A DNA stretch of 22,600 bases from a virus: IMG/VR virus record IMGVR_UViG_3300044695_004113, positions 1 to 22,600 of that record. The stretch is one strand, 5' to 3'. This document shows, in pieces, positions 374-21,361 of this stretch. Numbering within the stretch: position 1 is the first letter of the stretch; each line of letters opens with the position of its first letter. The translations under genes were made by a program, and so were the position numbers. The notes beneath the pieces were generated by a model that ran no database searches, was not told the DNA's origin, and worked only from the letters and a program-made list of their open reading frames with translations.

Positions 374-2494
374 TTACCAGTTTTCTTCGTCGTAGTTGAA
401 TGTGTCGGGTGTGTCTTCGTGGTGTATTGGGGGGTGGGAACCGTTGGGGTTCTGATGGGTGGTTTGGGTGGGCTGGTTCTGGTTTGGGTGGGTGGTGCCT
501 GGGGTGGGGTGGAACCGTCCCGTATCTTCGATACGGAGACTGGTTCCCTTACCCTCGTTGGGCTCTAGGGGGCGGTTCTTTGGCGGTTCTTTGGACGGTT
601 CCCACGGTTCCCATGTTTGGTCGCGGTTCTCGTCGTTGGTTGGGAACCGCTCTAGTGGGTCTGGTCTGGGTAGGTTGCGTGCCTGGTTTGCTCGTAGGAC
701 GGTCTTCTTGTGGGCGAGGGTGAGGCCTCGAAGTTTGGCGTCCTGCATGATGGCTGTTGCTGCCATGTCGCGTGGGTAGCCGAGCTCGTCGAGGCGTTTG
801 CCTAGGTCTATCTCTGCCTGGGTCCAGCCTTCCTGCTGCTTGTGTTTGAAGCGGATGGTGGTCGTGTTGTCGATGTCGTCAACGATGAGCTCGACGGTGT
901 CTGGTACCCAGCCAATCCGTGTGTGGGTTCGCTTGAGTCTCAGCCCGTCTTCTGTCTTGTCGAGGCGGTAGACGATGTCCACGTCGTCGTTCTTCGCGCT
1001 GCTTCCTCGTTGCCCTAGTTTCTTGCCGCCGTCTTTGCCTGCGTGGTCTGTGCGGACGCAGGCGACGCCGAGGCGTTTGAGGGTGAGGCCTGTGGTGCGG
1101 GCAAATTCTCTATATGAGTCTGCCGAGTTTTCTTCTCCGTCGATGGCGCGGCCTGTGGTGTCAATGATGACGACTTCTGCTTTGGTGAGCTCTACGAGCT
1201 TCTTGATGCTGTTGGCGCCTTCCTGGGTGTTGAGTGGTGGGAGGCTGGGAATGATGGCGTAGTGGAAGTGGGACCAGTCGTCGTCCTCGGTGTAGCCGAA
1301 TGTTTCGAGGCGTTCGTAAAGGTCCGCCTCAATCATTTCGTAGTCGAGGTATAAGACGTGCGTGGGTGGTTGCGCTGGTTGTCCGAGGATGGGCTTGCCT
1401 GTTGCTAGGGCTGCGACCACGTTGAGTGTTAGCCAGGACTTGCCTGTCTTCGCGCCTGCGAAGAGGGCGGTCTGTCTTCCTTTGGCGATGAGGGGTTTGG
1501 CGATCCATTCTTCTGCTGTGTGTTCCCCTTGCCAGAAGTCGTCCCACTTGATGAGCATGCTCAGCATCTCGTCTGGCGTTGGTTCTGTTGTTGGTTCGGG
1601 TGGGTTGGGGTGCTGATTGAGGTATGCCTTTGCTGCTTGCTTCCAATCGCCGTTGTGGTCGCGTGCTGCCACGTAGCCGAAGCGGTTGTATCCGCCTTCT
1701 GGTAGCCAGGGGATGCTCGAAGTGAAGACGATGAGTGCGTCGTTGCCGTTGTGTCCGATGGTTGCACTCGTTCCGTCACGTGGGTCTTTGCCTGGCCTGG
1801 TCCAGTGTTGTTCGCCGTAGCGGTCTGTCTTCGCAAGGGTCCAGCCGTCGTTGAGGAGGATTGTCTCCCAGTTTGTTTCTGCGTTGAAGCGGGCCGATGG
1901 GCTTGTCTGGTCCTGGATGAACGTGTCGGGTTGCTCTGGCGGTTTGACCATCGTTGGTTGTTTCGTGAGGAGCTCGATCATCCATGGTGGTGCTTGCGCT
2001 GGTTTGCGTTCGAGGGGCGATGCTCCGTCGACCCAGTTGTATTGCCGTCCGTTCGGATGGATGCTTGGCTCCGCTAAAACCTGGCCCCCTTCACCTCGAA
2101 TGTCTAAGCCAACGCCAAGGCGTGAGCCTGCGTCGTTGCGTATTTCGGTTGGGGCGTAGTAGTAGAGGTGTCTGCCGCCTGTTCCTGTGATGGCTTCGAC
2201 GGTGTCTGGTAGCGGGCCGTGTTTTGTTTCAAGGTCGTTGAGTGTGTCTGAGCCTCGGTATTCTTCTCTGTCGTCGACATCGAGTACGAAGATGTTGCTG
2301 TGTTTCGTTTTGCCTGTTGCGATGCCGATGCCGTGGTTCGCGTAGTCGTTGGTCCACCATTGTGTGATGGTGTTCGCGTTGGTTGTTGCTTTGTCTTGCC
2401 AGCCTTTGATGGGCGGGTGTTTCTTCCCTGGCGTTATCGGGATGACTCGGATGCCTAGTTTGGCGTAGGCGAGTGCTGCTTCGAGTGGTGTCAT
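374..2494 (-). CDS. PrimPol-helicase fusion (bifunctional DNA primase/polymerase with RepA-like ATPase)
   Basis: 706 aa from ATG 2494 (ATGA overlap); the longer frame upstream is shadow of the HTH gene. Residues 1-175 are a PrimPol domain: FVLDVDD (D72, D74), TGGRHLYYY (R108, H109), and LDIRGEGGQVL (D131) then PSIHPNG. Residues 195-290 form a linker domain. Residues about 330-540 are a RecA/RepA-type ATPase: Walker A GAKTGKSW (347-354), Walker B VVIIDTTG (D445), then RTDHAGKDGGKKLGQRGSSA. The end (610-706) is low-complexity, rich in Pro/Asn/Thr/His, with WEPWEP at 628-633. It likely primes and unwinds DNA for phage replication. Confidence 0.9.
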   Translation of the reverse strand: MTPLEAALAYAKLGIRVIPITPGKKHPPIKGWQDKATTNANTITQWWTNDYANHGIGIATGKTKHSNIFVLDVDDREEYRGSDTLNDLETKHGPLPDTVEAITGTGGRHLYYYAPTEIRNDAGSRLGVGLDIRGEGGQVLAEPSIHPNGRQYNWVDGASPLERKPAQAPPWMIELLTKQPTMVKPPEQPDTFIQDQTSPSARFNAETNWETILLNDGWTLAKTDRYGEQHWTRPGKDPRDGTSATIGHNGNDALIVFTSSIPWLPEGGYNRFGYVAARDHNGDWKQAAKAYLNQHPNPPEPTTEPTPDEMLSMLIKWDDFWQGEHTAEEWIAKPLIAKGRQTALFAGAKTGKSWLTLNVVAALATGKPILGQPAQPPTHVLYLDYEMIEADLYERLETFGYTEDDDWSHFHYAIIPSLPPLNTQEGANSIKKLVELTKAEVVIIDTTGRAIDGEENSADSYREFARTTGLTLKRLGVACVRTDHAGKDGGKKLGQRGSSAKNDDVDIVYRLDKTEDGLRLKRTHTRIGWVPDTVELIVDDIDNTTTIRFKHKQQEGWTQAEIDLGKRLDELGYPRDMAATAIMQDAKLRGLTLAHKKTVLRANQARNLPRPDPLERFPTNDENRDQTWEPWEPSKEPPKNRPLEPNEGKGTSLRIEDTGRFHPTPGTTHPNQNQPTQTTHQNPNGSHPPIHHEDTPDTFNYDEENW
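435..649. repeat. Cluster of TGGGAACCG 9-mers with a 7-bp palindrome
   Basis: TGGGAACCG occurs at 435-443 and 641-649 on plus, and at 596-604 and 605-613 on minus (in tandem). Between them, CCGTATC-TTC-GATACGG (520-536) is a perfect 7-bp hairpin. All are inside the low-complexity end of the PrimPol gene. The closely similar TGGGAACGG is tandem at 19897-19914. Confidence 0.6.
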
Positions 2495-2733
2495 GATGCT
2501 TGCTCGTCTTCGATGTCGAACCAGTCGAGCCAGACTTCGGATGGGTGCATGCCCATCGCGACGGCGTATCTGTCTGCGTCGTATTCCCAGATGAGGGCGT
2601 TGGGGTTGCGCCTCCATCTGACGACGGTTGTGCGTGCTACTCCGCAGAGGCTTGCGATGATGCTGTCGAAGCCTTCCTCTGGGAACAGGCGCAGCAGGGG
2701 TCGAGGGTCTAAGTATCTGCCGTGTTTTCTCAT
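2491..2733 (-). CDS. Helix-turn-helix DNA-binding protein
   Basis: 80 aa, with AAAGGAGGGCCA before the ATG. Residues 22-42 (FDSIIASLCGVARTTVVRWR) form a helix-turn-helix with recognition helix TTVVRWRR. Then ALIWEYDADRYAVAMGMHPS and EVWLDW follow, a phrase that recurs in actinophage small HTH proteins placed before the primase. It could be a regulator or a replication accessory. The stop overlaps the PrimPol ATG (ATGA), so it is coupled to that gene. Confidence 0.75.
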   Translation of the reverse strand: MRKHGRYLDPRPLLRLFPEEGFDSIIASLCGVARTTVVRWRRNPNALIWEYDADRYAVAMGMHPSEVWLDWFDIEDEQAS

Positions 2734-2969: not shown

Positions 2970-3063
2970 CTTCTTCTACGCCTCGGTCGCCGCACCAGGG
3001 TTGAGTGGGCTGGGGTTGTTTGCATGGGCATGGGTTGAGTGGGTTGATGCCTGGTCGTGTCAT
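2962..3063 (-). CDS. Small Cys/Pro-rich peptide (33 aa)
   Basis: 33 aa. ATG 3063 overlaps the TGA of the PP-loop gene, and its own TGA lies eight bases inside the next gene. It reads MTRPGINPLNPCPCKQPQ, then PTQPWCGDRGVEEDE. Three cysteines (CPC and WC) with prolines suggest a small metal-binding or disulfide-linked peptide. Translational coupling directly behind the PP-loop protein hints at a partner, but this is inference. It is short, so some doubt remains that it is translated. Confidence 0.55.
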   Translation of the reverse strand: MTRPGINPLNPCPCKQPQPTQPWCGDRGVEEDE

Positions 3064-3851
3064 GATTCGTCGTCCATGAAACAGCCGCAGGCGCCCCAGT
3101 CTTCTTTGTCAAACATTGCGGGTTGGTCTTCGAGGCGTTCTCTGAATCTGCGCAGCGTTAGCGGCGTTGTTTTGCCCTGCTTAGTTTCTTTTAGCATTGC
3201 CACATCTTTTTTAAGGTATGCCCTTGTCTGTTCTTCCTCGTTTTCCCATTCAAGGAAGCGTTCGCGGTTCCAGTCGAGCAGCATTTTCCATGCTGCCTGG
3301 CCTCCTCGAACGCATGCGCCTCCGCAGTTTGCGTGGCTGAAACCGACCGAATATAAACGTGGGGGTTCAATTCCGAAGTCGCGGTATTTTTGAAGTAGCT
3401 CCGACTTTTCTACAAATGGTTCATGCATCAGCGGGGATTTGATTTTGTATGGTTCCCATAAGGGTGCTGCGCGTTCATGGCGTTGTGGTTCTGTCCAGTC
3501 GAAACCTAAATAGATGTAGCTGTCTTCTGGGTCGCAGTTGTGTTTGATCCATTTGTCTAAGGCTTTTCGTTTGAGGATTTTGCTGCAGACAGCCATTCTG
3601 TCGTTTGGTACGACGCGCTCGTCCCTTCCTACTTGCATTGGTGTTCTTCCGTCGCGTATCACGATCCATTCCCAACGGTCAGAAAGTTTTGCGACCACTT
3701 CTTTTGCGAACCGCCAATTGTCGTAGTCTTCGACCATCGTGTCTGCTGTGAGAAGTACGAGCCTGTCTCCTGGGGCCGCTTCATCTTGGACTCTGAAGGC
3801 AACTTCCGCCGATCCAATGCCTGTAGAAAATTGTACGCAGTGAACGGTCAT
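3060..3851 (-). CDS. PP-loop protein, PAPS-reductase/adenine-nucleotide alpha-hydrolase-like
   Basis: 263 aa from ATG 3851, chosen for its ATGA overlap and AAGGAGG site; the longer frame is shadow. The N-terminus CVQFSTGIGSAEVAFR resembles the nucleotide-binding PP-loop (SxGxxS). Then VLLTADTMVEDYDNWRFAKE and VCSKILKRKALDKWI give a second conserved region (C89). The C-terminal part has SVGFSHANCGGACVRGGQAA (C176, C180) and ends WGACGCFMDD (C255, C257), a pattern known in phage members of the PAPS-reductase family. Such enzymes activate sulfate or thiolate a substrate; here the substrate is unknown. The four late cysteines could bind a metal or Fe-S centre. Confidence 0.75.
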   Translation of the reverse strand: MTVHCVQFSTGIGSAEVAFRVQDEAAPGDRLVLLTADTMVEDYDNWRFAKEVVAKLSDRWEWIVIRDGRTPMQVGRDERVVPNDRMAVCSKILKRKALDKWIKHNCDPEDSYIYLGFDWTEPQRHERAAPLWEPYKIKSPLMHEPFVEKSELLQKYRDFGIEPPRLYSVGFSHANCGGACVRGGQAAWKMLLDWNRERFLEWENEEEQTRAYLKKDVAMLKETKQGKTTPLTLRRFRERLEDQPAMFDKEDWGACGCFMDDES

Positions 3852-4111
3852 TTTGTTCCTCCTTGTAATTCCATTCGCAGCGCGTGTAGTTCCCCGTTGC
3901 GTGCTTCTAGTTCCAATGTGAGGCCTTCGATGAGTTGGGCTCGTATGTTTGCGAGCTTCTCTGCGTAATCTGCACGTTTCTGTGCGGCTCGCATCTGCTC
4001 GAAGTAGTTGCTGGTCAGGTTGATGTTCGCGTCTATCTGTCCTTGCCCTTGTTTGAGCAGTCTGCGAAGTCGTCGCGGGTTCCATTCCCACCAAAGTTGC
4101 CGCACGCTCAT
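3848..4111 (-). CDS. Small basic coiled-coil protein (87 aa)
   Basis: 87 aa. The N-terminus is Trp/Arg-rich (RQLWWEWNPRRLRRLLKQG), possibly nucleic-acid or membrane binding. It is followed by a long helix: NINLTSNYFEQMRAAQKRAD, YAEKLANIRAQLIEGLTLEL, EARNGELHALRMEL. Its stop overlaps the start of the PP-loop gene (ATGA), so the two are likely made together. No family recognised. Confidence 0.65.
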   Translation of the reverse strand: MSVRQLWWEWNPRRLRRLLKQGQGQIDANINLTSNYFEQMRAAQKRADYAEKLANIRAQLIEGLTLELEARNGELHALRMELQGGTK

Positions 4112-6953: not shown

Positions 6954-7322
6954 TTAGTCGATGGGTGTTGTGGGGATTTTGGTGGGCTGGTCCAGCATGG
7001 CGAGGAGCTCTGCCCAAATGCGGGCGGGCATAACGGCGTACCAGTCGTTGACGTCGATGCTGCCTCGGCGTTTGATGATGACGGCGCCTGTCCAGGCTTC
7101 CGCGTTGTCTATCTCAACTTCAAGCTCGGCAAGGTAGCCAGGGATGTTTATGCGCTTCTCGTTCTTCACTTCGATGCACACGCCTGGCATCCCGTCGATG
7201 TCGCCTCGGTCGTCTGTCCAGCCTGCGCGGGATCGTTCCGCATGTATCCATCCCCACGTGCGCAGCCACTTCGCGACGGCAAGTTCCGCGCTGTTTCCTT
7301 TACGCTTCTGTGGTGATGTCAT
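6954..7322 (-). CDS. Holliday-junction-resolvase-like nuclease (PD-(D/E)xK, Hjc-type)
   Basis: 122 aa. The N-terminus KRKGNSAELAVAKWLR carries E13. Then AERSRAGWTDDRGDIDGMPG carries the metal Asp D41, and CIEVKN gives E51 and K53, in the right spacing for a resolvase-type nuclease. Related phage proteins with 'GDIDG...IEVKN' are called Holliday junction resolvases and would resolve branched replication or recombination intermediates. The ATG follows GAAGGAGAGG within the WhiB gene. A 74-bp gap with a 6-bp hairpin follows before the exonuclease gene. Confidence 0.78.
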   Translation of the reverse strand: MTSPQKRKGNSAELAVAKWLRTWGWIHAERSRAGWTDDRGDIDGMPGVCIEVKNEKRINIPGYLAELEVEIDNAEAWTGAVIIKRRGSIDVNDWYAVMPARIWAELLAMLDQPTKIPTTPID

Positions 7323-7602
7323 GGCCTCTCCTTCGAGCTCGTCGTATCCGTTCTCGTTCCATCGTAGTTGTGGCTCCCCAAATGCCGACCTCGTCGTTGT
7401 CTATCGCGAACTTCAGGCAGATGCGTCGTGCCGAGCATTGGTGGCATATCTGTTTCGCCTGCTCCACTGAAGTTGTCGATTGCTCATGAAAGAATAACTC
7501 GGTTTGGCTTTTGCATCGTGCGTTCTCTTGCCATCTGGGGCGTTGTGGTCTGAAGACGTTTTCCCCTTCTGACCAGAAGTCGACGACGTGACCGTTGCTC
7601 AT
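7300..7602 (-). CDS. whiB: WhiB-family transcription factor
   Basis: 100 aa from ATG 7602, which overlaps the previous TGA. Upstream residues in the same frame are shadow. Four cysteines that hold a [4Fe-4S] cluster are present: C30 (ARCKSQTELFF), then C53, C56 and C62 in ICHQCSARRICL. The GIWGATT turn (73-79) and the basic C-terminus ERERIRRARRR complete the family signature. WhiB proteins occur in actinobacteria and their phages and bind the main sigma factor to change promoter use. The gene probably helps shift host transcription. Its end overlaps the next gene by 23 bases. Confidence 0.95.
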   Translation of the reverse strand: MSNGHVVDFWSEGENVFRPQRPRWQENARCKSQTELFFHEQSTTSVEQAKQICHQCSARRICLKFAIDNDEVGIWGATTTMERERIRRARRRGHDITTEA

Positions 7603-7868
7603 TCGTAGCTGTGGTGCGTTGGGTGGTCTTGCATCGAGCGGCGCCGCTCGTGTGCTTCGCGTGCTTCCTGGCGCCACTGGCGTCCGATGCGCACGTTGTA
7701 GAAATGGACCGCTCCGATGGCGATGATGTTAATGCCGAGCCAAATCTTCCACTCGTTGGGTGTCGCTGGTTCCGCGCCTGGCAGGTCTTCTGCCGTTGGT
7801 GCCAGCCAAAATATCCAGCCCAAAGCGACGAGCGCGATAATCCAGCTTTGCTTCATTCGGTCTGTCAT
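7599..7868 (-). CDS. Small two-span membrane protein
   Basis: 89 aa, with AAGGAGG upstream of ATG 7868. The first hydrophobic segment is WIIALVALGWIFWLAP (about 9-24), followed by an acidic linker (TAEDLPGAEPATPNEW), a second segment IWLGINIIAIGAVHFYNV (about 42-59), and a strongly basic/charged end with His near the C-terminus. Such proteins are common in actinophages and usually uncharacterised. The gene follows the secreted hydrolase after a 63-bp gap and is coupled by ATGA overlap to WhiB. A role in envelope remodelling or signalling is only a guess. Confidence 0.65.
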   Translation of the reverse strand: MTDRMKQSWIIALVALGWIFWLAPTAEDLPGAEPATPNEWKIWLGINIIAIGAVHFYNVRIGRQWRQEAREAHERRRSMQDHPTHHSYE

Positions 7869-12260: not shown

Positions 12261-12424
12261 TGCTGGTCTTCCTTCTTCGTTAAGGCACCAGCCAAATGAA
12301 GCGCAAGCGTCCCGATGGTTACCCAAATTGCGAGCTGCTGTGTGAAGCCCGACAGGGTTCCTATCGTGATAATGGACGCGCCGATGGTCCAGAGCAATGC
12401 GTGTATCTCGCCCCAGAATTTCAT
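12257..12424 (-). CDS. Small two-span membrane protein, holin-like (55 aa)
   Basis: A 55-aa gene. ATG (12424-12422) overlaps the TGA of the Thr-rich gene as ATGA, and its own TGA (12259-12257) overlaps the next ATG the same way, so it is tightly coupled on both sides. It has two hydrophobic segments, ALLWTIGASIITIGTLSG (about 9-26) and LAIWVTIGTLALHLAGAL (about 31-48), with a short turn between them and a charged end TKKEDQQ. A two-helix hairpin of this size directly before a holin and endolysin fits a class II holin or a holin partner. No homologue was recognised, so the role rests on topology and context. Confidence 0.8.
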   Translation of the reverse strand: MKFWGEIHALLWTIGASIITIGTLSGFTQQLAIWVTIGTLALHLAGALTKKEDQQ

Positions 12425-13788
12425 CGTGTTCTCCGTGTGGTTAGTGCAGGGCTTGCGCTCAATAATACTGCACTCAACGCAACCATCGCTCGTCGCTGCG
12501 CCACTGGGATCGTTGAGTTTGATGCGATGTAGTTATCTGCAAAACCAGAGAAAATGTTTAGCGCTGCTTCGAATGCTTGTTTGATTGCTGTTGGCGCATC
12601 TTGAACGGCTGCGACGACGGCTTCTGCCTCGTCTGCTGTTAGTTCGTCTGTGTTGATTTGCTCGAAGAGCTGCGTCGCCTGGTCCTGTGTGATGGTTGCC
12701 AGAACTTGTGGGCTTGTCACAATCGCTGCGACTTGATCTGTCTGAAGTTCCTTTTCGAGCACGTCATCGATGATGGCTGCTATCTGTTCTGGTTCTGCCT
12801 CAGCCAAAGCGACGACTGTTTCTGCTATCTCGGCGTCTGAGGCTTCGCCTGGTTTGGGCGGCTCAGGTGGGAGGGTGGTTGGCGTGGGCTGGGTAGTCTG
12901 GGGTGATGTCGTTGTTGGTGGGGTTGTTGTCGTTGTTGTGGTTGGTGGTGCTGTGCTTGTGGTGGTCGTTGCAGTTGTGGTGGTTGTGGTTGTTGGCTGA
13001 TCCGTTGTGGTGGTTGTCGTTGGTGGTTCTGTTGTGGGCGGTACGGCAATGGTGGCGGGCGGCTCGTAGACGGTCGTACTGGTCGTCGAGGTAGTTGATG
13101 TTGTCGTTGTGGTGGTTGTCGTGGTGGTTGTCGTTGAAGTGGTCGTCGTTTCGGGGATGGTTGTCGAAGGGGCGCTAGTTGTTGTTTGAGGCAGGGTGCT
13201 TGTTGTCGTGGGCAGGGTGGTCGTTGGGAGGGTTGTTTCTGGCAGGGTGGTGGTCGCCTCGGTTGTGGTGCTCGGCTCGGTTGTGGTTGTCGTTGCCTGT
13301 CCTGTTCCGTAGTTCAGGTTGCTAATCGTCAGAATTCCTGGGGCGCAGCAGCTGTCAGTCGAAGCCTGGCGAATGGCGAAGGTGTCTCCTGGTTGAACGG
13401 GCGCTTCAATGGTCCCTGTCGCGTTGTTGTTCTGGGTGGGGTCTTGGAATGAAACCAGGCCCGTTGCGGCTCCGTTGATGGCGTATTGGGGTGGGTCGTA
13501 CCAGGCGCCGTCTGTCGTTTGGTAGGCCCACGTGAACGCGATGAGGGTGATGCCTTCTGGGATGGTTGTTTCGAGCTGCGTGTGGTTGGCCCGTCCCGCG
13601 CAAGTTCCGCCGTCTGGTCCAACGATGATGAAGCCATCGGCGGTTGGTGTTGCGTTGCCGCCTTCTGCTGCGATGCAGGTCTTACTGAATGTCCAGGCGC
13701 CTAGCGCGTCTGCTTTGGTTTTGGTTGGTATGAAAAGGGCGAGGAGGCTTGCTGGTATGACAATCAGCCAGCGGCTGTTTCTACCCAA
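12421..13788 (-). CDS. Secreted Thr/Pro-rich protein with C-terminal hydrophobic anchor
   Basis: About 455 aa from TTG 13788. GTG 13809 is an alternative giving 462 aa. No ATG sits near the signal peptide; the ATG at 13854 would add upstream residues that are only shadow of the previous gene. Residues 1-27 look like a signal peptide: Arg near the start, hydrophobic core IVIPASLLALFI, then a KADA cut site. Residues about 28-160 are a beta-type domain with paired cysteines, 165-315 are almost only Thr/Pro/Ser, and 320-430 are acidic and helical. The end, VALSAVLLSAS then TTRRTR, resembles a C-terminal membrane anchor with basic tail. It is ATGA-coupled to the holin-like genes. It could be a surface, lysis-linked or exclusion protein; function unknown. 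Confidence 0.75.
   Translation of the reverse strand: MGRNSRWLIVIPASLLALFIPTKTKADALGAWTFSKTCIAAEGGNATPTADGFIIVGPDGGTCAGRANHTQLETTIPEGITLIAFTWAYQTTDGAWYDPPQYAINGAATGLVSFQDPTQNNNATGTIEAPVQPGDTFAIRQASTDSCCAPGILTISNLNYGTGQATTTTTEPSTTTEATTTLPETTLPTTTLPTTTSTLPQTTTSAPSTTIPETTTTSTTTTTTTTTTTTSTTSTTSTTVYEPPATIAVPPTTEPPTTTTTTDQPTTTTTTTATTTTSTAPPTTTTTTTPPTTTSPQTTQPTPTTLPPEPPKPGEASDAEIAETVVALAEAEPEQIAAIIDDVLEKELQTDQVAAIVTSPQVLATITQDQATQLFEQINTDELTADEAEAVVAAVQDAPTAIKQAFEAALNIFSGFADNYIASNSTIPVAQRRAMVALSAVLLSASPALTTRRTR
12845..13290. repeat. Low-complexity GTTGTGGT-type repeat encoding the Thr-rich region
   Basis: ACC and ACA codon runs on the minus strand give imperfect repeats of GTTGTGGT-like sequence on the plus strand. 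They code the mucin-like stalk of the protein. Length is likely variable between relatives. Confidence 0.85.
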
Positions 13789-14111
13789 GCCTGCGCGTCT
13801 TCTTCCCACTCGTAATCTTTCCCATCCGCAGGGCGTTCTACTGGTGCTTGCCAATCGTAGTTGCTATCTAATGACCACGATGGGTATGGCTGTGGTGCGA
13901 TGAAAACGTCAGCGGTTTGCTCGTATGTGTATCCGATGGATGCGTATTGTTTTCTAATGTTGTTGTTGTATGAAGTTCGCACGCATTTTTGTTTGCGAAA
14001 ATTTCCATACCAGTCTTCTGGTGTAAGTCCATCGATAAGTTCGTTTTCGTCTTTGCCAGTAATAACTTCAGTGACGATGTTGCTTTCGTTTAAGAATGCG
14101 TAGTGTGCCAT
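13764..14111 (-). CDS. Conserved phage appendage-associated small protein
   Basis: 115 aa, acidic and aromatic. It reads MAHYAFLNESNIVTEVITG at the start, then CVRTSYNNNIRKQYASIGY, YEQTADVFIAPQPYPSW and a C-terminal EWEEDAQAWVE. I recognise this pattern (TSYN...IRKxYASIGYTYD...FI.P.PYPSW) from proteins carried by many cyanophages and other aquatic phages, usually near fibre genes. Its function is not established; fibre or appendage association is inferred from location. The ATG shares one base with the stop of the glycine-rich gene, indicating coupled translation. Confidence 0.7.
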   Translation of the reverse strand: MAHYAFLNESNIVTEVITGKDENELIDGLTPEDWYGNFRKQKCVRTSYNNNIRKQYASIGYTYEQTADVFIAPQPYPSWSLDSNYDWQAPVERPADGKDYEWEEDAQAWVETAAG

Positions 14112-14947
14112 TAGACAGTGACCGTTCCTGTTCCAGCTGTAAATGTGTAGACGCGATAACCAGGTCGACTTGCTGTGCTCACTGAATAAGTAAGTCCTCC
14201 GCCGATTGTGGTCAAGGCATCGTAATCAGCAAGGTAAGCGATGACGACAATTCCTGAACCACCATTTCCTCCACCAGCAAAAGCAAATCGACTTTCTCCA
14301 GCACCGCCACCGCCACCGCCAGTATTCGGTGTTCCAGAACCACTGTTGCCATTGCCACCGCCACCTGAACCACCTGAACCAACAGTGCCACCGTTGTATG
14401 TTCCACCGCCACCGCCACCGCCACGAGTGACTGAAGAACCTGTTATTGATGATGCGCTTCCTGCACCGCCAGTACCGCTAGCAGCGCCGCCACCATTTCC
14501 GCCAACTGCACTAGCACCGCCGCCGCCGCCTCCTCCACGTGCAGGGTCACTGAAACCTCCACCGTTTCCGCCAGCATTTCCTTCTCCTGCTGTTCCGTTT
14601 GATGGACCGTTTGATGATGGTGAACCATTTTGACCACCGCCAGAACCTCCGACGGTTGAGTTGATGTAAGTTCCACCGCTATCTCGACCAGCACCGTAAC
14701 CGCCGCCAGTTGAAGTGATTGAACTAAAAACGGAATTTACGCCTTGACCAAATCCACCGCCACCAGCTCCAACGGTTACCGTGAAACTTGCAGGAAGTGC
14801 CAAAGTGTTAGAGCGGTAGCCACCAGCACCACCACCACCAGCTGTGCTGTTGTTGCAACCGCCACCGCCACCGCCACCAGCAATAACTAGATATTCAACT
14901 TCGGTTGGTTTGCCACCAATAGCTCCCACTCCTGCGAGTAGTTGCAT
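14111..14947 (-). CDS. Glycine-rich tail tip / adhesin-like protein
   Basis: 278 aa. After a short N-terminus with VEYLVIAGGGGGGG comes a long stretch (about residues 24-225) dominated by Gly runs broken by Ser, Asn, Ala and Thr. Then GNGGSGIVVIAYL and a C-terminal RPGYRVYTFTAGTGTVTV. This layout (EYLVVAGGGGGG at the start, GSGIVIV near the end, YTFTxxGT at the C-terminus) is a recurring phage and bacterial domain. The Gly runs may pack as polyglycine-II helices, as in T-even gp38 adhesins, with variable loops contacting the host. Its position after the appendage gene supports receptor binding. The DNA is low-complexity CCACCG-type repeat, prone to slippage. Confidence 0.75.
   Translation of the reverse strand: MQLLAGVGAIGGKPTEVEYLVIAGGGGGGGCNNSTAGGGGAGGYRSNTLALPASFTVTVGAGGGGFGQGVNSVFSSITSTGGGYGAGRDSGGTYINSTVGGSGGGQNGSPSSNGPSNGTAGEGNAGGNGGGFSDPARGGGGGGGASAVGGNGGGAASGTGGAGSASSITGSSVTRGGGGGGGTYNGGTVGSGGSGGGGNGNSGSGTPNTGGGGGGAGESRFAFAGGGNGGSGIVVIAYLADYDALTTIGGGLTYSVSTASRPGYRVYTFTAGTGTVTV
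14240..14900. repeat. Low-complexity CCACCGCCA-type repeat within the glycine-rich gene
   Basis: Repeated Gly codons give runs of CCACCGCCACC on the plus strand across most of this interval, for example around 14300-14320, 14405-14430 and 14865-14880. The repeat is coding, but it could drive in-frame expansion or contraction between related phages. Confidence 0.85.
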
Positions 14948-16597: not shown

Positions 16598-19105
16598 CTA
16601 TATCGATCCGAAGTTGAAGGTTGTCCCGTTGAGGCGTTGGTAGTCGCGGAGGTATTGGTCGAGTTCTTGCCCTACTTGGATGCCGCTTGCTCCGAGTCCA
16701 GCGTTGATAGTTATTTGTGGTCCTGCTTGTGCATAGACGAGGTCGCGGTTTCTGTTTCCGATGGTGCTGTTTGGTTGGGTAACTACCGAGGCCATCGGGT
16801 TGGTTATCCCTGCCGTTATCTTTGGGTAAAGTTTCGCAATCTCAGCGGCCTTCTCGTTTGCTGTGTTGAGGCGCTCCTGGGCTTCTGCTTCACGGTCGAT
16901 GGCGTCTGCGACTCGAATGGTCGCTTCTTCCTGGCGTCCCTTTGCTTCTGTGAGGGCGTCGCTGAATTGGGCATAAAAGTCTGAGCCAATAACGGCCCCA
17001 TAAATAAGTTCGTTCAGGGTGCTCTGTGACGTGGCCAGGTCATCTGTTGCGTCCTTCTGCTCGTCTGTGGCGTCCTTTGCTGAAAGCTTCGCCTCAGCCA
17101 GCGCTATCTCGGCTTCCCGTATCGCCTGTGGGGAGGACTCTGGGTCTAGGCGTATCTCTGCGAGCTGTCGTTCCGCATCCGCGATGGCGAAGACGGACTC
17201 CTCAACGCGGTAGCCAGCTCGTTCCACGCCTCGTTGCGCCTGGTCCAATTTGCGTTGCGCTGCGATGGCTTCTGGGGAGGCTGCTCCGTATCCAGAGACG
17301 GCTTTGTCGAGGGCGGCTTGTGCTGTCGCCACGTCGAGTGTTGCCTGGTTGAGGTCTGCTTGTGCGTTCTTCGTGTCGGTCTGTGCCTTGCTAAATGCCT
17401 TCTGTGCTGAGGTTGAAGTCCTCAGCGCGTCTGTGTATTCCTTCAGTTTTTCTTTGGCTGTCTTGATGGTTTTTGCTGCGCCGCTCGATGATGCTCCTGC
17501 GTCGTCCGATGCGTCTGTGAAGCCGTTGAGTGCTGTCTTGCTTACTTTGAGGGTGCCGTTTACGCCATCGAACTTTGCGTTGACTTCCTGGAGTTGTGCT
17601 CCTGTTAGTCCCATCTGCGTTCCTAGCTTCTTTGTGTCCAGCGTAATTTTCGGGATGTTTGGTACAAGCGGTATCTTGTTGAAGACGTCGATGAGGGTAT
17701 TAACTACCGAGACGGCAATGTTTGCGAGGGCGGTTTTCATCTCGTCGAATTTTCCGACGAAGCCTTTAACGGCGTTTACTGCAATGTTCGCGATGCCTTT
17801 AATGAAGCCAACGAAAATGTCGGGAAGTGCTGCGACTAATGCGACGATGGCTCCGCCAAGTCCCGCGATGAGTTGGCCTCCGATTGTTAGCGTCCACTTA
17901 ATAAGTGAGCCTGCGAGTCTTGTTCCTGCTGAAAGCAGCGCAGGGATTCCATCTGAAAGTACCCACTTTGCGATGTCTGCCAGGAACGTTACGAGTTGTG
18001 CGGGAAGTTGTCGCGCTGCTTTACCAACGAATGACGCGAGGGTGTCTCCTAGTCCTTGCACGACGGTCACCAGTTTTGGCAGTCCTTCTTTGTATATCCA
18101 TTCGTAGCCTTTGAGGAGGAAGTCGCGCAGTTCCCCAATGAACATAGGGATGCGTGGTTCAATCCAGCCCGTCAGCGCTTCTGCCCATCGTTGAAGTCCT
18201 GCAGCGAACGCTGGGGCTCCTGTCGTTACTGTCCAGTCGATTGCTGCTGTTATCAATTCTTGAAGTGCGTTTACAAGTATTGGGGCGCCTTCTTTGAATT
18301 TGTCAGCGATGAATTGGATGCCGCCACCTATTCCGCCTTCTGAAAGTGCGCTACCGAACTCATTAAGGACTGGCATCACTTTGTCTGTGATGAGGCTCAT
18401 CGCTCCTTCGAGTGCTGGCATAAGTGCGTAGCCGACTGATTCGACAACTTCTCCGAAGCCTGTCTTCAATCGTTGCAGTCGTCCTGAGAATGTGTCTGCT
18501 GCGACTGCTGCTGCGCCTCCGAATTGTTTATTCAATTCAGCCGTCACCAGGTTCATGTCTTTGGACTTCTTGATGTTGTCGCTCAGCGGTATTCCAAGTT
18601 TGCCAAGCGCTGCGAAGTTGCCAGTCGCGGCTTTGCTCAGGGCTGCAACTGTTGACGTCAGATCTTTACCGCTGCCTGCTGAAACGTCGAGGCTCAATTT
18701 CATGAGGTCGTTGGCTTCTGTTACCGAGCCTGTTGCACGTACGAGCTGTGCGAAGGCTGGGCGCAGGTTGTCGTCTGCGATGCCTGTCGCCAGCATCATC
18801 ACGTTGATCTGTTCTTCAACTGCTGCTATCTGACTCAAGGTTGCGCCTGTGGTCGCTTTGAGTTGTTGTGCGAGGAGGGCTTGGGACTTCTGATCTTGTG
18901 CTGCTCCTTCGACGGCTTTGTATGCGGCTGCTGCTGTCGCAGTGAAAGCGGCGGCCCCTGTTATCGCCATCGTTTTGAATGATGGCAGTAGTCCTGTTAC
19001 GCCTTTTTTGAGGGAGCCCATTCCTCCGCTTACGCTGGCGATGCCTTTGTTGAAGCCGAGGGTGTCTGAAATGAATTTAACTAAGAAGGTGCGCTCGCCA
19101 GCCAT
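16598..19105 (-). CDS. Tape measure protein
   Basis: 835 aa, the longest gene in the window. It sets tail length and is threaded through the tube by the chaperones. The N-terminus has the TP901-type pattern: FLVKFISDTLGFNKGI, an AAAFTATAAAAYKAVEGAA helix, AQDQKSQALLAQQLK, then a region with LSLDVSAGSGKDLTSTVAAL and GKLGIPLSDN, and SGRLQRLKTGFGEVVESVG. Hydrophobic segments occur near residues 400-440 (LIAGLGGAIVALVAALPDIF), likely membrane-active on DNA entry. Residues about 540-760 are Ala/Glu/Lys/Gln-rich and predicted coiled coil. At 835 residues it implies a fairly short tail. It follows the AEP gene by ten bases and ends three bases before the hub gene's start. Confidence 0.92.
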   Translation of the reverse strand: MAGERTFLVKFISDTLGFNKGIASVSGGMGSLKKGVTGLLPSFKTMAITGAAAFTATAAAAYKAVEGAAQDQKSQALLAQQLKATTGATLSQIAAVEEQINVMMLATGIADDNLRPAFAQLVRATGSVTEANDLMKLSLDVSAGSGKDLTSTVAALSKAATGNFAALGKLGIPLSDNIKKSKDMNLVTAELNKQFGGAAAVAADTFSGRLQRLKTGFGEVVESVGYALMPALEGAMSLITDKVMPVLNEFGSALSEGGIGGGIQFIADKFKEGAPILVNALQELITAAIDWTVTTGAPAFAAGLQRWAEALTGWIEPRIPMFIGELRDFLLKGYEWIYKEGLPKLVTVVQGLGDTLASFVGKAARQLPAQLVTFLADIAKWVLSDGIPALLSAGTRLAGSLIKWTLTIGGQLIAGLGGAIVALVAALPDIFVGFIKGIANIAVNAVKGFVGKFDEMKTALANIAVSVVNTLIDVFNKIPLVPNIPKITLDTKKLGTQMGLTGAQLQEVNAKFDGVNGTLKVSKTALNGFTDASDDAGASSSGAAKTIKTAKEKLKEYTDALRTSTSAQKAFSKAQTDTKNAQADLNQATLDVATAQAALDKAVSGYGAASPEAIAAQRKLDQAQRGVERAGYRVEESVFAIADAERQLAEIRLDPESSPQAIREAEIALAEAKLSAKDATDEQKDATDDLATSQSTLNELIYGAVIGSDFYAQFSDALTEAKGRQEEATIRVADAIDREAEAQERLNTANEKAAEIAKLYPKITAGITNPMASVVTQPNSTIGNRNRDLVYAQAGPQITINAGLGASGIQVGQELDQYLRDYQRLNGTTFNFGSI

Positions 19106-19115
19106 GCGCGTAATT

Positions 19116-19820
19116 CTACTCTGGTCCTCCGACTTGGTTCATGAGTGCAGTGAAGTCTTCGAGCATCGCCTTGTATTTTGCTTTGCCGTTGAGTTCGCTG
19201 TATCGGTTTGTTCCTGTTGCGCTGTTCCACCATTCTTCTGAAAGCATGACCGATTGTGGTTTGCGTTGTCGTGGTTGTCGCGCTGTTCTTGTTTGCCCTG
19301 GTTCGATGTTGTGTTCTGTTTCCCAGTTGAAGTCTGCGTCGAGGAGCGCTCCGTGTCCCTCATGGAATTCGTACGGTTGATCTGGCGCATGTTGCGGCAA
19401 GTAAAAGAGGCGGGCTGGGTCTTTGGTTTGCGGGTCGCCTTCGAGCTGCAGGCGTTGGTGAAGCCCCAGCCAAACCGCCCGCCATAATCCTGCTGGCACT
19501 CGTTCCGCCAACGGGAGGACGAGGTGGTAGTGCGGGTCTTCGTTGCTGTGCGAATAAGTGGAATATGCGAACCACTCCAGCCCGTCGAGTCTGGCGTTGT
19601 CGAATGCTTCGCCGTCCATGTCTACGACGAGGGCTTCGATGAAGCGGACGCCTTTGTTGCCTCGTTTGGTCCCTGGGTAGTATTCGACTGGCGACCAGAG
19701 GGCGCCGTCTGTTTTGTTCGGGTTTTCTTCGTGGTGTTGAAGGAGGGCTTTGAGCTCTGCCCAAGTGTCTGCGAGCGGCTTTGGTTGGGTCGCTTTGATG
19801 GATGCGAAATAGACGGGCAT
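19116..19820 (-). CDS. Free-standing archaeo-eukaryotic-type (AEP) primase-like protein
   Basis: 234 aa. AEP enzymes make primers or extend DNA with two metal-binding acidic residues. Here motif I is ALVVDMDGE (D67, D69). Motif II is the HYHLVLPL segment (H97-x-H99) after YSTYSHS, and the later DPARLFYLPQ segment (about 134-143) is characteristic of BT4734/RepB-like primase domains. Residues 165-234 form a basic, low-complexity tail and a short helical end, with no helicase domain. The ATG is preceded by AAGGAGG, a strong ribosome site. It lies between the gp10-like and tape measure genes, ten bases before the latter, which is an unexpected place for a replication enzyme. A second, larger PrimPol is at 374-2494. 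Confidence 0.72.
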   Translation of the reverse strand: MPVYFASIKATQPKPLADTWAELKALLQHHEENPNKTDGALWSPVEYYPGTKRGNKGVRFIEALVVDMDGEAFDNARLDGLEWFAYSTYSHSNEDPHYHLVLPLAERVPAGLWRAVWLGLHQRLQLEGDPQTKDPARLFYLPQHAPDQPYEFHEGHGALLDADFNWETEHNIEPGQTRTARQPRQRKPQSVMLSEEWWNSATGTNRYSELNGKAKYKAMLEDFTALMNQVGGPE

Positions 19821-19847
19821 TGGTCCTCCTTCCTTTTACCTTACTGG

Positions 19848-19950
19848 GTTCCCACCGTTCTGGCCCGCTTCGGGTTGGTCCCTCGTGGGGCTTCGACCGT
19901 TCCCACCGTTCCCACCGTTCTGGCCCGCTTCGGGTTGGTCCCTCGTGGGG
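19848..19950. repeat. 60-bp-period tandem direct repeat (two copies of a 43-bp core)
   Basis: Positions 19848-19890 and 19908-19950 are identical over 43 bases, offset by exactly 60. The core contains CCCG-CTT-CGGG (a small hairpin) and the 9-mer CCGTTCCCA. Between the copies the 9-mer is repeated head to tail (19897-19905, 19906-19914) and then partly again. The repeat abuts the stop of the gp10-like gene and fills most of the gap before the AEP primase gene. It could be a regulatory or origin-type iteron region; no function is shown. Confidence 0.85.
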
Positions 19951-19951
19951 G

Positions 19952-20482
19952 CTAGTCGTTGGCGAGTTTGGTAAGCACGTCCTGGATGGCTTTGAGGTAC
20001 TCGGTCGCTATCTCGTCGCGCTTCTTGCGGACGGTCTGCCAGAAGAAGTAGCCGCTTCGTCCCCTGTGCCTTAAGAATTGGCGTGTGCTCGGCCTTGCCT
20101 GGCCTCCGAACTCGGCGCCGAAGAAAACATCCCCACGTGTCACTTTGCGTTTGCGGAGGCGGTTAGGCCTGCTCACTGAAACGAAGCCCTCCTTCGCTGA
20201 AAGGGCGACGGTTGGGATGCGGTCGCTTCTGGCCTTCATGCCCTTCATCACCTGCTCCGCCTGGCGGTTCCTGCTCACTGTGGAGGCCTCCACTTTGGCT
20301 CCGTCAACTACGAGCTGCGCGACTTGTTTGGCTGCGAGGCGCATCTCCTTGTTGAAGTTCTCGTCCGCCTTCGAAGCGGCTCGTAAGAATTCTGCGATGC
20401 CTTCAACAACTATCGGGTTGTTTCCGCTCGGCGCAATTGTTACCTGGCCTGCTCGTCCGAGAGGTAGTCCTGTTACTGCCAT
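19952..20482 (-). CDS. HK97 gp10-like neck/tail-completion family protein
   Basis: 176 aa, basic. It opens with a short beta region, then a helix (GIAEFLRAASKADENFNKEMRLAAKQVAQLVVDGAK) of the kind seen at the start of HK97-gp10-like proteins. A middle basic segment follows (RPNRLRKRKVTRGDVFFGAEFGG), and the C-terminus has the typical SGYFFWQTVRKKRDEIATEYLKAI helix. Members act in head-tail joining or tail completion. Its place after the GT chaperone, rather than between adaptor and tail tube, is unusual compared with lambdoid order. ATG 20482 is nine bases after the GT stop. It ends at TAG directly against the downstream tandem repeat. Confidence 0.65.
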   Translation of the reverse strand: MAVTGLPLGRAGQVTIAPSGNNPIVVEGIAEFLRAASKADENFNKEMRLAAKQVAQLVVDGAKVEASTVSRNRQAEQVMKGMKARSDRIPTVALSAKEGFVSVSRPNRLRKRKVTRGDVFFGAEFGGQARPSTRQFLRHRGRSGYFFWQTVRKKRDEIATEYLKAIQDVLTKLAND

Positions 20483-20491
20483 GCGTTCAGG

Positions 20492-20901
20492 TTACTTGTT
20501 TTGCTGGATGGCCTTCCATCGCAAGTACGCGAGCATGGTGAAAATCGTTCGCGGTGTTTCTGCCAGCAGCACTGACGGCGCTATTCCTGTTTCGCAGGAA
20601 AGGTACGCGATTATCCAGTGGGCTGACTGATCTCCAAAGGGACGATCGTGGCCTCCGCCTGGTCCGCAAGTTCTAGCGTTTCAATTTCATCGCACCATGT
20701 CTCGAAGTCGAGGCCTGTTTTCTTTGCGCGGTAGTCGCTGTTCCATGCGAGGAATGCGAGATCAGTGAGCGTCAGTTCTGTTTCGAATTTTGCGACGCTT
20801 CTGTTGAAGCGGTTTTCGAATGCGATGAAGTCTGGGAACGCCGCAACAATCACACGCTTCTTGTTGTCGTGTGTTGTTGTTACTTCGAGTGCGAGTTTCA
20901 T
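20492..20901 (-). CDS. Tail assembly chaperone, -1 frameshift product (GT-like, 136 aa)
   Basis: Joining residues 1-89 of the G frame to the -1 frame at the heptamer CCCTTTG gives a 47-residue extension ending at TAA 20494-20492. The extension begins GDQSAHWIIAYLSCETG and includes APSVLLAETPRTIFTML and LRWKAIQQNK. These are the features of T domains that contact the tape measure: HW-aromatic start, short helices, and a Leu/Lys-rich tail. In the -1 frame the nearest upstream stop is TGA over the ATT-GAA codons, so the slip must occur between there and the zero-frame stop. The heptamer is the only good X-XXY-YYZ site I found in that interval. The stop is nine bases before the next gene. Confidence 0.8.
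20611..20901 (-). CDS. Tail assembly chaperone, short form (G-like)
   Basis: 96 aa product of normal decoding. G-type proteins help assemble tail tube subunits around the tape measure and are made in excess over the frameshifted GT form. The N-terminus is beta (KLALEVTTTHDNKKRVIVAAF), followed by helices with FIAFENRFNRSVAKFE and LTDLAFLAWNSDYRAKKTG, a typical chaperone arrangement (compare the 'LAWhAlkR' helix of related proteins). It stops at TAA 20613-20611, just past the slippery heptamer, and lies between the tail tube and tape measure regions as expected. Confidence 0.8.
   Translation of the reverse strand: MKLALEVTTTHDNKKRVIVAAFPDFIAFENRFNRSVAKFETELTLTDLAFLAWNSDYRAKKTGLDFETWCDEIETLELADQAEATIVPLEISQPTG
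20635..20641 (-). other. Programmed -1 frameshift slippery heptamer (C CCT TTG)
   Basis: On the minus strand the zero-frame codons are CCT TTG preceded by C, giving C-CCT-TTG. Both tRNAs can re-pair one base back on CCC and TTT. The next codon is then GGA, opening the 47-residue T-like frame. The site lies 22 bases before the zero-frame TAA, as is usual for tail chaperone genes. Confidence 0.8.
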
Positions 20902-20935
20902 TCTGTTACCTCCGCAGGTAAGGGTTGGGAATTAT

Positions 20936-21361
20936 TTAAGCGCCAGTTCCTGTCTTCGTTACAACGCCATCGATTGGATAGGTGATTGAGGCTGTTGCCA
21001 GGTCACCTACGGCGCCCGCTACAGGGGTCCAGTTGACGGGCAGCACGTTGAATGCGTACTGCGGATTAGAAGAAGAAGCCGCGCCTGTTCCGTTTGGCTT
21101 CACTGTCATTGGTACTGAAGTTCCGTTTTGGAATGCGTCGTAGAACAATTTTTCGATCGTTGGGTAGTCCTGATGAAGTTCAAGAGTGACGCTGTGGTCC
21201 TTGAGTCCTTGGATGCGTGTGACTGCTCCACTTGAACCGAACGAGGTCGTAGCGATTTCTGCTGCCGTCAAGTTCAATGTGCATGATGCGACGTATGAGG
21301 TGATGTCGGTGTTCGCTGTTCCGAAAGTGACAGCCACGTTTGTGAGGACTTGCTTTGCCAT
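20936..21361 (-). CDS. Major tail (tube) protein
   Basis: 141 aa. It would polymerise into the tail tube. The sequence is beta-rich with alternating Thr and Val: an N-terminal strand MAKQVLTNVAVTFGT, a DITSYV segment typical of small tube proteins, then LNLTAAEIATTSFGSSGA and LKDHSVTLELHQDY, and a Gly/Ala/Thr-rich C-terminus. It lies directly before the G/GT chaperone gene, the normal position. The ATG is preceded by AGGAG eight bases upstream. The 81-bp gap before it shows no other gene, only a weak 5-bp inverted repeat. Short length puts it among the small tube proteins without an added Ig-like domain. Confidence 0.8.
   Translation of the reverse strand: MAKQVLTNVAVTFGTANTDITSYVASCTLNLTAAEIATTSFGSSGAVTRIQGLKDHSVTLELHQDYPTIEKLFYDAFQNGTSVPMTVKPNGTGAASSSNPQYAFNVLPVNWTPVAGAVGDLATASITYPIDGVVTKTGTGA

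Follow-up and report, generated by a model that had tools for sequence, protein, structure and literature searches.

The question raised by this locus is why a stand-alone protein with the predicted fold of the AEP superfamily should be encoded within a tail-building cluster, which is an unexpected place for a DNA-copying enzyme. The AEP superfamily and the AEPs of mobile elements are already known, the viral ones having been described as fused to a helicase or adjacent to one. In the literature that we searched—most subscription journals and all preprints being outside that coverage—we found no description of a tail module with an AEP as a fixed member and, within the same coverage, no virion proteomes bearing on such a protein. 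Here we consider the identity of the protein, the history of the gene in its slot, and the functions that might be proposed for the product.

Gene context within the window

The window, by which we mean the whole stretch of DNA analysed, is the entire 22.6-kb IMG/VR record IMGVR_UViG_3300044695_004113; the record is a linear fragment, and all its recognised genes are carried on the minus strand. Table 1 collects the features of interest.

Table 1. Positions of the stand-alone AEP gene, its motifs, and related features in the window.
Feature	Position	Strand	Remarks
Stand-alone AEP gene	19116..19820	(-)	ORF of 234 aa; ATG at 19820, stop at 19116
AEP protein layout			AF2 model: catalytic core 1-165; low-confidence linker 167-188; C-terminal helical tail 189-230
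Motif I, D67-M-D69	19614..19622	(-)	Invariant in 31 diverse stand-alone members and in VapE-type AEP domains
Motif II, H97-Y-H99	19524..19532	(-)	Invariant in 31 diverse stand-alone members; R-x-R in VapE-type relatives
Motifs III and IV, D129-PQTKDPA-R137-LFYLPQ	19392..19436	(-)	Third acid and motif-IV Arg
Tape measure (TMP) gene	16598..19105	(-)	PHROG tape measure, 4.4e-8
gp10-position gene	19952..20482	(-)	176 aa; immediate and conserved neighbour on the 5' side of the AEP gene
PrimPol-AAA_25 helicase gene	374..2617	(-)	Pfam Prim-Pol 4e-46, AAA_25 7e-24
Two perfect 43-nt direct repeats	19848..19950 (19848-19890 and 19908-19950)	(-)	In the gp10-AEP gap

The 234-aa open reading frame on which the original prediction was based does exist, and its location on the minus strand, which had been left out, may now be added. 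In the reading direction the genes follow one another as head-tail connector, tail terminator, major tail protein, tail assembly chaperone, gp10-position gene, AEP, and TMP; the last of these begins 10 bp past the AEP stop and is the next gene downstream in the relatives as well. The slot had been described as lying between a gp10-like gene and the tape measure, of which description the second half holds through the PHROG match, whereas for the label "gp10-like" we found no confirmation: Pfam and PHROG profile searches gave no family name for that gene, which stands after the chaperone. On the 5' side of the AEP gene we found a strong Shine-Dalgarno-like stretch (AAGGAAGGAGG), and within 18900-21000 no promoter-like site, which absence fits a read-through into the AEP gene without proving it.

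The 43-nt direct repeats occur in only the window and its near-copy L002, and for that reason are not part of the conserved AEP gene; they are a recent local duplication. Their candidacy as a regulatory or origin element was rejected on the grounds of that restriction and of an RNA folding worse than that of their own shuffles.

A PrimPol-helicase separate from the stand-alone AEP is encoded in the genome, as had been claimed, its gene extending from 374 to 2617 instead of to 2494; this protein is the candidate for the main replication primase of the genome. In addition, a WhiB-like gene, as read from the sequence at 7300-7677, is a pointer to an actinophage, since WhiB is regarded as an actinophage marker (PMC10202952).

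Other genes of the window deserve a brief description. A PAPS-reductase-family gene at 3060-4010 on the minus strand (PHROG 424, 3.6e-33) is a putative auxiliary or DNA-modification gene. On the same strand, beyond the tail genes in the reading direction, 14111-14947 and 12421-13854 encode Gly-rich and Thr-rich proteins of low complexity; these contain numerous internal repeats and are probably host-contact proteins. The tail assembly chaperone gene (20901-20611) contains an in-frame -1 slippery heptamer, CCCTTTG, at 20641-20635 on the minus strand, and the -1 extension, whose end is at about 20492 (...AHWIIAYLSCETGIAPSVLLAETPRTIFTMLAYLRWKAIQQNK), is conserved; with the heptamer present, alone or together with another one, in 203 of 208 relatives, a programmed frameshift in this gene is well supported.

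Fold and family of the stand-alone protein

PHROG DNA primase/helicase families matched the AEP protein at 9.6e-16 and 9e-10. Pfam gave no match for it; PF09250 (Prim-Pol) matched neither the window AEP nor any of 31 members of its family, in none of which was a helicase or PriCT domain matched by Pfam either; no zinc domain was found in the stand-alone AEP; and sequence searches of PDB chains gave no match. The AlphaFold2 model of the 234 residues had a mean pLDDT of 84, and of about 95 over residues 1-165, which confidence rests on a diverse 49-row alignment, 20 close homologues having given a pLDDT of 36. The sole PDB match of Foldseek under an E of 0.001 was the AEP domain of the cyanophage S-2L PrimPol, and this same structure (6zp9) stood at the top of the VIA-align results with a Z of 9.1 over 137 residues at 14% identity. 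Further AEPs in those results were RepB' (Z 6.8), Prim-PolC (6.6), CAPP (6.5), the archaeal primase (6.2), the human primase (5.8), and LigD-Pol (5.7).

A Z below 8 is weak if taken alone; we base the AEP identity on the circumstance that the leading VIA-align rows are mostly AEPs, on the continuity of the sequence family with the AEP domains of primase-helicases, and on the fitting catalytic residues described below. With the fold as modelled, the protein is confirmed as a stand-alone, core-only member of the AEP superfamily. A free-standing AEP had been predicted from the outset, with a non-AEP fold named as the result that would speak against it, and both structure prediction and fold search returned an AEP fold.

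The second rank of the VIA-align results was occupied by PDB 2atz (H. pylori HP0184; Z 7.7), which protein may itself be AEP-like. As a separate matter, we rejected close paralogy with the PrimPol that the genome encodes, there being no profile similarity between the two: the comparison by hhalign of the AEP family with an alignment of that PrimPol gave a probability of 0.9%.

The phages that carry this family form a large group, are uncultured, and infect aquatic actinobacteria; viral contigs hold 276 and 351 confirmed related stretches, which, with the PHROG primase match and the fold, put the gene beyond a chance reading frame. One member, A0A6J5S580 from an uncultured Caudovirales phage (BFVD), likewise has 234 aa, is 61% identical, and was deposited as uncharacterized. 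The GTDB species genomes that we scanned contained no stand-alone copy and one AEP-helicase-like protein only, in a Chloroflexi MAG.

Active-site residues

The D67/D69, H97-x-H99, and DPARLFYLPQ elements, the last of them from D134 onward, are present as originally read. A loss of the acidic and histidine residues among relatives, which might have undermined the assignment, was not what we observed, these residues being invariant in the 31 diverse stand-alone members; D129, K133, D134, R137, Y140, and Q143 are invariant there too, and in the distant pair L296/L282 K133 is replaced by S. The VapE-type AEP domains share D67, D69, D129, R137, and Y140. One correction concerns the third acid: in the alignment with the VapE-type domains the deeply invariant one is D129, just upstream of the DPAR motif. 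R137, followed by L, I, or M downstream of motif III, constitutes the motif IV Rh (Arg plus hydrophobic) as defined for the PrimPol-PV1 supergroup (Kazlauskas 2018, PMC5862659), whose Arg is essential for the activity of PolpTN2 (PMC5862659). Motifs I and III and the motif IV Arg of the window AEP match the pattern of that supergroup. Motif II, which varies among AEP families (PMC5862659), is R-x-R in the VapE-type domains and in the Chloroflexi MAG protein L276 versus H-x-H in the stand-alone family. Judged from the sequence, the active site of the stand-alone AEP is intact.

Comparison with known AEPs

Among the nearest known counterparts are the AEP domains of the VapE-, D5-, and DUF3987-type primase-helicases of phages and mobile elements, which are PrimPol-PV1-like; the VapE-type domains are 17-24% identical to the window AEP, and an AEP-D5 protein, L148, is 36% identical. 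The closest multi-domain relative outside viral contigs is L276 (3210-5930), a 906-aa protein with an AEP core at its N-terminus, which matches the window AEP at 41% identity over 159 aa, and with a helicase part that looks, by eye, DUF3987-like. The AEPs of the VapE, D5, and DUF3987 types are N-terminal domains of 780-1060-aa proteins located among replication genes, whereas the window AEP is core-only and located in a tail block; in the same manner, the replicative primase-helicases of mobile elements have the helicase or PriCT fused or next door, while the window AEP has the gp10-position gene and TMP for neighbours. The AEP domain of the S-2L PrimPol, although being the closest solved fold, is part of a replication protein, unlike the stand-alone window AEP. 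The mycobacterial Prim-PolC, the CRISPR-associated Prim-Pol, and LigD-Pol share the fold of the window AEP (Z 5.4-6.6), but they belong to a cellular repair or CRISPR context, and no sequence similarity between them and the window AEP was found.

The slot and its inheritance

In the 80 loci retrieved by searching with the window protein (identities of 62-99%), the AEP lies beside the gp10-position gene, the TMP, or both wherever those are on the contig; in about 50 more loci, recovered through a DPAR-motif pattern at about 35-45% identity, the same slot is occupied wherever the neighbours are on the contig; and the still more distant L296 and L282, which the tail tree places close to the Pontimonas phage, have the AEP in that slot as well. 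The survey of related phage genomes that had been advised for the gp10-AEP-TMP order therefore gave the same slot in every stand-alone relative examined, and none of the loci examined had a stand-alone relative beside replication genes.

The dN/dS of the AEP was 0.17 in the clade of the window and 0.11 in another clade, which values denote purifying selection. Its distances correlated with those of the chaperone (0.85), the tail terminator (0.85), and gp10 (0.82) to the same degree as the distances of those genes correlated among themselves; with those of the TMP the correlation was 0.33, and with those of the PrimPol-helicase 0.95 (9 genomes). Since the AEP tracks the tail genes and the PrimPol-helicase alike, the inheritance is vertical, and a link to the tail and a link to replication are indistinguishable by this approach; the AEP is, in any event, vertically co-inherited with the tail block. 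The PrimPol domain PF09250 was found in 8 of the 20 contigs searched, the remaining ones being possibly fragments, and one contig of 30-35 kb (G001) carries terminase, portal, capsid, tail, lysis, and PrimPol genes in one direction.

Of the origins initially suggested for the gene, a recent insertion is rejected because the slot is common to every stand-alone relative, down to about 35% identity, and the co-inheritance with the tail genes likewise speaks against such an event. A small independent replicon or a defence-like cassette finds no better backing, in that the PADLOC models recognised 0 families for four diverse AEP members and no companion cassette genes were present.

Lineages lacking the gene

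The Pontimonas phage phiPsal1, a cultured relative with respect to the tail block (connector, tail terminator, MTP, chaperone, g417), has no AEP between chaperone/gp017 and the TMP, and in the EBPR siphovirus 6 none was found in the gp10-TMP slot. In a sample assembled through a gp10 motif, 9 of the 232 motif-bearing loci were AEP-less (7 of the 9 being distant lineages), which ratio is not a frequency, since the AEP itself had served to retrieve the majority of these loci. Two AEP-less loci, L292 and L304, are nested in an AEP-bearing clade—the smallest well-supported mixed group, with an SH-aLRT of 100—in a quick tree with no bootstrap. Both retain the same tail genes, with gp10 at about 20 bp from the TMP, and the 24.2-kb record of L292 (the same as G021 and L313/L314), a contig that does not reach the replication genes, is devoid of an AEP throughout. 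With the AEP gene precisely absent, these two loci constitute a natural deletion for comparison.

The sharing of the slot, together with the nested position of L292 and L304, indicates a gene of long standing that is retained as a rule and for which parsimony implies one loss or more. The gene is not indispensable, the L292/L304 lineage being without it.

Possible functions of the AEP

Stand-alone AEPs that lack a helicase, such as Prim-PolC, CAPP, and LigD-Pol, prime or fill gaps in trans, which activity makes a late action on concatemers ahead of packaging, by re-priming or by the filling of gaps, the most economical reading of the locus. Tentatively, and with somewhat less than even confidence, we propose that the AEP may be a catalytically competent minimal primase-polymerase, made together with the tail proteins, that would perform late re-priming or gap filling on the phage DNA in an accessory capacity. 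The protein would share its message with the tail proteins and, for that reason, would be abundant late. With neither a helicase of its own nor a known DNA-binding domain, it would act in trans on single-stranded stretches of the phage DNA, where it would lay short primers or fill gaps in late concatemers; the terminase would then package a gap-free duplex. The main replicative primase would accordingly be another protein, the AEP serving as an accessory enzyme. We infer the catalysis, the late expression, and the action on phage DNA, and we draw the gap-filling role by analogy from stand-alone AEPs and not from the sequence; Prim-PolC, for its part, carries out short-gap repair synthesis (PMC7442782). 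Of the roles first suggested, the priming of late DNA synthesis and an action in packaging or recombination are likewise possibilities read from the gene order.

In favour of the proposal stand the confident AEP fold, the invariant motifs, the purifying selection, the constant slot, and the distances that track those of the tail genes. Against it count the distances that track the PrimPol-helicase as well and the lineage that does without the gene; moreover, nearly all the genes in the genomes of the relatives run one way, so that lodging among tail genes does not by itself imply expression confined to the late phase. The unidirectionality of the genomes also suits the idea of a general replication or repair AEP that was lodged in the tail block by chance, whose position would say little on timing and whose role would be to help the PrimPol-helicase; the distances that track the PrimPol as well as the tail genes, and the nearest multi-domain relatives, which are primase-helicases, point the same way. 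We nevertheless regard this idea as unlikely, albeit far from negligible, in that every stand-alone relative has the tail slot and none stands beside replication genes, and in that the slot is kept though the neighbouring genes get exchanged, as the low TMP correlation illustrates.

The adjacency to the TMP and tail protein genes may be taken to mean instead that the virion takes up the AEP via the TMP or the gp10-position protein and that the enzyme is injected to prime or repair the incoming genome, in the manner of the N4 virion RNA polymerase. The C-terminal helical tail outside the core, with its invariant Trp, could be a docking segment, and both conjugation-delivered primases and a virion RNAP among late genes are precedents (PMC5512222); the tracking of the TMP is weak, though TMPs vary in general, and we consider such packaging rather improbable. 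Iyer and colleagues indicated that solo primases occur in phages but that, among polyvalent proteins that are transferred, those with PrimPol domains are limited to conjugative elements (PMC5512222). A shade less credible still would be the corresponding proposal of a virion-linked enzyme that is produced and delivered together with the tail, attached to the TMP or the gp10-position protein, and that acts at injection or packaging, as a priming counterpart of the N4 vRNAP.

The tail-block position and the co-inheritance would likewise be explained if the AEP fold had been exapted as a structural or assembly factor of the tail, with catalysis being irrelevant. This explanation we hold to be very doubtful, because the catalytic motifs are all invariant in the 31 aligned members, which conservation a purely structural role would not need, and because the nested lineage with the same tail genes does without the AEP.

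Scarcely credible, lastly, is an HUH-type (rolling-circle Rep) nuclease in place of an AEP, a reading that comes from the P-H-x-H strand, from weak Pfam matches in some members (REP_ORF2-G2P, 0.016; Gemini_AL1, 0.01), and from HUH domains in the VIA-align list at a Z of about 3 only, and that we reject because the 31-member alignment has no conserved Tyr at residues 100-129, where the helix following the H-x-H strand would hold the catalytic one of an HUH nuclease, while AEP structures score far higher (Z 5-9) and the pattern of D67/D69 plus R137 is that of an AEP.

Returning to the accessory primase-polymerase made together with the tail proteins, a DNA-synthesising enzyme that selection has kept in the tail block with its active site intact would, if that proposal is true, tie DNA synthesis or repair to the assembly of the particle or to the delivery of the genome, which coupling would concern a common group of aquatic actinophages.
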